From contig VBKY01000399.1 of assembly GCA_005879255.1 (NCBI GenBank), positions 1-13,922 of the forward strand: a stretch of 13,922 bases of DNA, written 5' to 3'. Of this stretch, positions 11,761 through 13,006 are shown piece after piece; position 1 is the stretch's first letter; the number at the start of each line of letters is the position of its first letter. The notes under the pieces are model-generated. The model saw only the letters and a program-made list of their open reading frames with translations. It searched no databases and was not told the DNA's origin. The stretch is from Deltaproteobacteria bacterium (GTDB lineage: Bacteria; Desulfobacterota_B; Binatia; UBA9968). A program made the translations under genes and the position numbers.

Positions 11761-13006
11761 TCCCGTATCTGCCCGTCACCAAACACAACGAACTTCGTCG
11801 TCGTCAGCTCTTCCAACCCCATCGGGCCGAACGCGTGGATCTTGCTCGTGCTGATGCCGATCTCCGCGCCCAAGCCCAGTTCGCCCCCATCATTGAAACG
11901 TGTCGAAGCGTTGACCATGACCGCTGAAGAGTTGACGCGATCGATGAAATCGCGCGACTTTTGATAGTTCGTCGTAACGATGCTTTCCGTGTGCTCCGAG
12001 CCATAGCGCTCGATGTGATCGATCGCCTGGTCCATATCCTTGACCACGCGCACGGCGAGAATCAGATCGAGATATTCAGTGGACCAGTCGGTTTCCGTAG
12101 CCTTATTTAATCCCGGAACCAACGCGCGGGTATTTTCGCAGCCGCGGATTTCCACGCCGGCGCGCTGAAATTTGGCAATCATGGTGGGCAAAAACCTCGG
12201 CGCGATCCCTTCGTGCACGAGCAACGTCTCCATGGCGTTGCACACCGACGGCCGCTGCACCTTGGCGTTGAAGCAGATCCGCTCGGCCATCTCCAGCGAG
12301 GCCTCGTTGTCCACGTAGACGTGGCACACGCCTTTGTAGTGCTTGATCACCGGAATTTTCGAGTTCGCCGCCACTGCGCGGATCAGCTCTTCGCCGCCGC
12401 GTGGAATGATGAGATCGATATATTCTTCGAGCTGCAGTAGCTCGTTCACCAGAGCGTGATCTTTGCGCTCGACGACTTGCAAGGCATCTTGCGGTACGCG
12501 TGTCTCCGCGCACGCCTGACGCAGCACAGCCCCGATCGCCTGATTGGAATGATGCGCTTCGCTGCCGCCGCGGAGAATCACCGCATTGCCGGATTTCAAA
12601 CAGAGCGCTAGATAATGCCGATGACGCCCAGTGGAATGCGCATGCGCCCGACCTGCAATCCGTTGGGCCGGCGCCACATTTTGATCACTTCGCGCACCGG
12701 ATCGGGCAACGCGGCAACGTCGCGGAGACCTTTAGCCATGCCGTTCACCCGGCTGGGATTGAGCGCGATGCGGTCGAGCACGGCACTCGACGCCCCCGCC
12801 TTATTGGCAAGCTCCAAATCTTTCTCGTTCTCTTTGATCAAGAACACGCTCTGAGCTTCCAGCTTATCGGCCATCATAAGTAAGGCTTTATTTTTTTCTT
12901 CCGACGATAACGGCGCCAGCTGCCGCGCCGCATTTTTGGCGCGCTTTCCCAGTTCGAGCGCCTCTTGTTTGAGTGATTGCTTATGACCTGACATAGCGAT
13001 TCTCAT
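11757..13006 (-). pseudogene. proA: Glutamate-5-semialdehyde dehydrogenase (proA), disrupted by an internal ~34-bp deletion
   Basis: ProA reduces gamma-glutamyl phosphate to glutamate semialdehyde, step two of proline synthesis. Here it lies in two frames. The N-terminal part (13006 to the TAG at 12608-12610, 132 codons) ends IPLGVIGII. The C-terminal part resumes in another frame at ALCLKSGNAVILRGGSE (from 12608 down) and runs to the TGA at 11757. The conserved segment between them, Tyr-Glu-Ser/Ala-Arg-Pro-Asn-Val-Thr-Val-Asp plus two residues, is missing. Adding back 34 bases restores the frame and gives 427 residues, the normal length. The catalytic Cys (QRPSVCNA) is retained. The start ATG overlaps the proB stop as ATGA; an alternative ATG is four codons later. 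Either a true recent lesion or an assembly error; as written no full ProA can be made. Confidence 0.88.

Follow-up and report, generated by a model that had tools for sequence, protein, structure and literature searches.

The proA gene of the analysed stretch of DNA (the window, 13,922 nucleotides in full) is broken by a 34-base gap that gives a frameshift and an immediate TAG stop codon. By open reading frame analysis, proA lies on the minus strand and is open from 13006 for 132 codons to IPLGVIGII, which is followed by TAG at 12608-12610. The residues ALCLKSGNAV come directly after this stop in the -1 frame, which stays open from 12608 to 11757, and a GTG-start ORF spans this C half. The initial annotation had described the same arrangement, with the N-terminal frame ending at IPLGVIGII-TAG and ALCLKSGNAV following in another frame, and both elements are seen on the minus strand. 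The features at the lesion are as follows:

12611..13006, minus strand: N-terminal 132 codons of proA (glutamate-5-semialdehyde dehydrogenase), in frame, 132 aa; NF001221, 126.5 bits, profile positions 3-123
12608..12610, minus strand: in-frame TAG made by the deletion junction, which falls between 12608 and 12609; the kept bases of the Tyr codon are 12609-12610
11757..12608, minus strand: C-terminal 283 codons of proA plus stop, -1 frame, with the QRPSVCN context; NF001221, 453.7 bits, profile positions 136-418

The gap was sized against related sequences. A scan of genome contigs with the proA C half returned 399 candidate stretches, of which 368 were confirmed and 80 kept as loci; a protein search found 7,995 matches among 8,000 scored candidates, and the best 120 were listed. 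The two proA halves are separated by 2 bases (TA) in the window and by 36 bases, in one frame, in 80/80 related loci, so 34 bases are missing. These are the third base of the Tyr codon and the 11 codons that precede the Ala codon of ALCLK, which agrees with the loss originally claimed (one Tyr base plus 11 codons). The restored protein likewise comes to the 427 residues proposed earlier (132 + 12 + 283), counted from the ATG at 13006; among the listed proteins, 4/120 are 427 aa long and 92/120 are 423 aa long, the shorter form starting 4 codons later. The linker predicted in the initial annotation was right in its length of 12 residues and needed amending in its motif: it had been given as YExRPNVTVDxA, and the residues between the halves are always YEARPNVTADAA in the best 120 of the 7,995 proteins.

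The missing segment is intact throughout the related sequences. The 80 loci carry 10 versions of it, all of 12 residues and none with a stop, the commonest being YEARPNVTADAA (31 loci) and YESRPNVTADAA (27 loci), with YEARPNVSADAA at locus L021. Alignments with three solved ProA structures (1o20, 4ghk and 8zok) place the segment unbroken in each, and it aligns with the NFPLN loop, a conserved loop, of two aldehyde dehydrogenases (two sequences were counted here, L081 having been left out because it was in the wrong frame). We take this loop region to be where the aldehyde dehydrogenase superfamily keeps its active-site Asn, the exact residue correspondence being putative. A lesion in common with kin was found in none of the 80 loci and none of the 120 listed proteins.

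Both proA halves match the ProA family in order (NF001221 / TIGR00407), and the C half alone exceeds the 289-bit cut-off. Like ProA (glutamate-5-semialdehyde dehydrogenase / gamma-glutamyl phosphate reductase; NF001221, TIGR00407; PDB 1o20, 4ghk, 8zok), the window copy has the halves in order, proB directly upstream and the QRPSVCN context, whose Cys we presume to be the ProA catalytic Cys. Unlike ProA, it is without 34 bases of the YEARPNVTADAA segment and runs out of frame; the one uninterrupted frame with a YExRPNVTxDxA segment that defines the family is cut by the TAG at 12608-12610. Judged from its sequence, the window proA is a broken copy of the gene and no working family member.

A product could still arise if the halves were joined by ribosomal frameshifting or acted as a split enzyme, which we regard as extremely improbable. 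The second half does lie in the -1 frame, where the GTG-start ORF covers it, and both halves are identical to the corresponding parts of an intact protein, P0002; that identity, however, can be explained without selection acting since the event. No X XXY YYZ heptamer starts between 40 bases before and about 25 bases after the junction, and programmed -1 frameshifting was ruled out on this ground. Even a perfect -1 shift would omit 11 residues from a segment of constant length (80 loci, 120 listed proteins), and the affected segment is the one aligned with the conserved loop of the two aldehyde dehydrogenases. Given the conservation of the lost segment and the lack of a slippery heptamer, the window proA should be null, and as written it should encode no working enzyme.

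The closest sister proteins bound the age of the lesion. P0002 (423 aa, from a JGI contig 3,855 bases long) agrees with the window ProA at 128/128 aligned N-half residues and 283/283 C-half residues and has the segment intact; P0003, P0004 and P0001 are nearly as close. Since a single intact sister protein matches both halves at 100% identity, the lesion is no chance reading, and since the segment is whole in P0002, the lesion postdates any amino-acid change separating P0002 from the window. The break arose inside the lineage of proteins identical to P0002, or no cell ever carried it. Of the 18 closest genome records, 13 are labelled Deltaproteobacteria bacterium and the rest Candidatus Binatia, Syntrophobacter or other environmental assemblies. 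One further protein, P0007 (418 aa), is 54% identical to the window in its N half and 98% in its C half and is probably a chimera or recombinant.

The minus-strand gene order in the window is proB, proA, nadD, rsfS, gpmI and then further genes, with the proB stop and the proA start overlapping by 4 bases:

13003..13920, minus strand: proB (glutamate 5-kinase, AA_kinase + PUA); TIGR01027, 387.7 bits; 5' end cut by the window edge
10916..11578, minus strand: nadD-type nucleotidyltransferase downstream of proA, which it adjoins in relatives too; matched to residue 219 of 220
10506..10910, minus strand: rsfS; 134/134 residues matched in L001 and L002
8899..10443, minus strand: gpmI (2,3-bisphosphoglycerate-independent phosphoglycerate mutase); 514/514 residues matched in L002

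The 10 ORFs besides proA were compared with the fetched loci. Whole-length matches were obtained for the tehB-like gene, comF, gpmI, rsfS and proB, and the ArsR-methyltransferase gene was matched over residues 5-322 of 335. The metH gene was covered to residue 171 in one locus (L013) and carries five Pfam domains in order from 17 to 1193. Neither of two amidohydrolase ORFs had a match in the fetched loci; one matches Amidohydro_2 over 11-289 of 289, nearly the entire profile, and the other, truncated at the window edge, matches Amidohydro_3 only weakly. By match lengths and domain profiles, no further lesion was found in the 10 neighbouring ORFs, the coverage being partial for metH and the amidohydrolases. 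Within these same limits, the earlier statement that the neighbours and the catalytic Cys show no decay holds: the match lengths are sound and QRPSVCN is present.

Between comF and gpmI, positions 8598-8740 hold an interspersed non-coding repeat that is partly palindromic (inverted arms 8676-8690 and 8695-8709). It has 1-36 reported matches in 10/18 relative genomes at E <= 0.001, the best at 91% identity over about 96 bases; these counts are lower bounds, only 40 candidates having been scored in five of the genomes.

We consider a read or assembly error the most likely origin of the proA gap and favour it with some reserve. A chimeric or deleted read or path may have entered an environmental contig of thin coverage; the window would then derive from a metagenome assembly. 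A technical break is indicated by the unchanged flanks, the single copy of proA in relatives and the existence of intact sisters. All 18 relative genomes contain one proA over the cut-off with no internal stop, and a second proA over the cut-off was found in none of them; with a single copy in 18/18, its loss should be costly. The constant segment length (120/120 listed proteins, 80/80 loci) and the intact segment of P0002, identical over both halves, also favour a technical break. The initial annotation had held that sister assemblies carrying the 34 bases would make the gap an assembly error; intact sisters do carry the missing stretch, which leans towards error and is no proof, as the sisters are other contigs. 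Against an error, the junction has no repeat that could mislead an assembler, and the neighbours are free of further lesions, so the contig is not generally error-ridden.

Alternatively, one strain or a minority of the population may carry a real 34-bp deletion of very recent date, and with it a null proA allele; this is a serious possibility, although we incline against it. The clean single junction among otherwise sound neighbours is consistent with it, and so is a blunt deletion with <=1 bp homology, which we infer to be of the ordinary spontaneous type; identity of both halves to P0002 is expected of a young event. The intact segment in 80/80 loci and 120/120 listed proteins argues against a real deletion, as does its cost: the cell would need outside proline or another proline route, and proA mutants of Ralstonia solanacearum are proline auxotrophs according to the available text of PMC9465252.

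The same junction was sought in other records. A protein search with the N half gave 179 matches, of which 120 were listed; 24/120 are without ExRPN, and none of these ends exactly at the window junction. Three listed matches end one residue past it (P0126 and P0239 at Tyr, P0215 with Leu) and may be contig ends. With the junction-crossing frame as query (7,796 matches, 120 listed), no listed match extended to the out-of-frame part, the C half alone being matched, and 92% of the query was aligned in all listed rows. The absence of the window junction from the 120 listed matches of either search favours a technical break and counts against a real deletion. A plasmid search with the proA C half returned 93 records, all below 60% identity.

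Broken ProA pieces do occur in public protein sets, including frameshifts, adapter tails and a fold-back chimera in the same segment, which lends further weight to a technical break. Frameshifted tails are present in listed pieces such as P0172, P0184 and P0188. Adapter-like tails (translated Illumina sequence; DRKSVV, RSEERRVGKEC) were observed in 4/120 listed fragments, P0158, P0193, P0210 and, only near to this type, P0200; they represent adapter read-through in public protein sets. The ends of the 120 listed N-fragments are spread over the gene, with 27/120 at P0002 positions 130-149; the fullest bin is 140-149 (18 ends), and 170-179 has 17. A break hot spot at the segment is unsupported by these scattered ends, and their want of a clear hot spot weighs against the technical explanation.

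P0122 is a fold-back (inverted) chimera: it enters the intact segment and then continues with 26/26 residues equal to the window plus strand at 12620-12697. The two spots that it joins, in inverted sense, are nearly those of the window deletion, which, as one case, suggests a foldable site. As a point for a technical break it is weakened by having no shown contig.

No direct or tandem repeat was found across the proA junction. End homology is 0 bases on one side and <=1 on the other, with any codons for the known protein, and it is 0 in 22 loci (from the first 23 loci, L021 being left out). Repeat collapse and slippage were rejected, given the absent repeats and the <=1 bp homology. The initial annotation had offered a very recent lesion or a local assembly collapse; a very recent or technical deletion stands, and a repeat-driven collapse is unsupported, there being no spanning direct repeat and microhomology of <=1 bp.

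A hairpin at the segment might have helped to bring about the event, whether in vivo or in vitro, and would be compatible with either a technical break or a real deletion; we think this unlikely. A CGGCAT ahead of the segment on the minus strand might base-pair with an ATGCCG within it, and both ends of the deletion fall a few bases from these two spots. The CGGCAT arm is present in the window, and P0122 turns onto the opposite strand at 12620 inside the segment, a fold-back that implies CGGCAT/ATGCCG pairing. P0122 is, however, a single case, and the second arm is deduced from the protein sequence. Exact inverted arms reach at most 4-7 bases in 18 close loci, 5/5 segments from relatives did not fold better than their shuffled versions (z -0.37 to 1.23), and the fragment ends show no clear concentration at the segment.

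According to the available text of PMC11017572, assembly errors account for many putative pseudogenes in public genomes, the more so at low coverage. For frameshift pseudogenes the same text rates coverage as a cause of low confidence only (37%), a weakness that tells against a technical break here. As far as that text goes, the window proA resembles such sporadic frameshift or spurious assembly pseudogenes in being an isolated lesion in a gene intact in near-identical relatives; it differs in that the study compared public RefSeq genomes and reassemblies from reads, whereas here a 34-base gap is read from contig sequence. No publication on this proA locus was found in the literature searched.

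The relatives have a strongly expanded ornithine cyclodeaminase/mu-crystallin family (PF02423), with 4-44 matches per genome in 18/18 (G001-G018). These matches make a bypass conceivable and to that extent favour a real deletion. All six PF02423-family proteins examined are open, 319-387 aa long and match the broad Pfam family, three over nearly the whole profile, and the NCBIfam cut-off was reached by 0/6; a true ornithine cyclodeaminase is thus not established by the six, which counts against a real deletion.

It is quite unlikely, in our view, that a clean deletion has only just deprived a free-living, Binatia-like bacterium of the environment of its sole proA, and that the cell now lives on proline from the community or by way of one of its many ornithine cyclodeaminase-family proteins. 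If true, this would be the start of an amino-acid dependence caught early and an unusually young loss of a proline gene. Where one biosynthetic gene is broken on an environmental contig and an intact sister at 100% identity exists, auxotrophy should not be concluded without the reads. The window proA is an ordinary sporadic broken gene copy, and either cause, a technical error or a very young broken copy, is ordinary.
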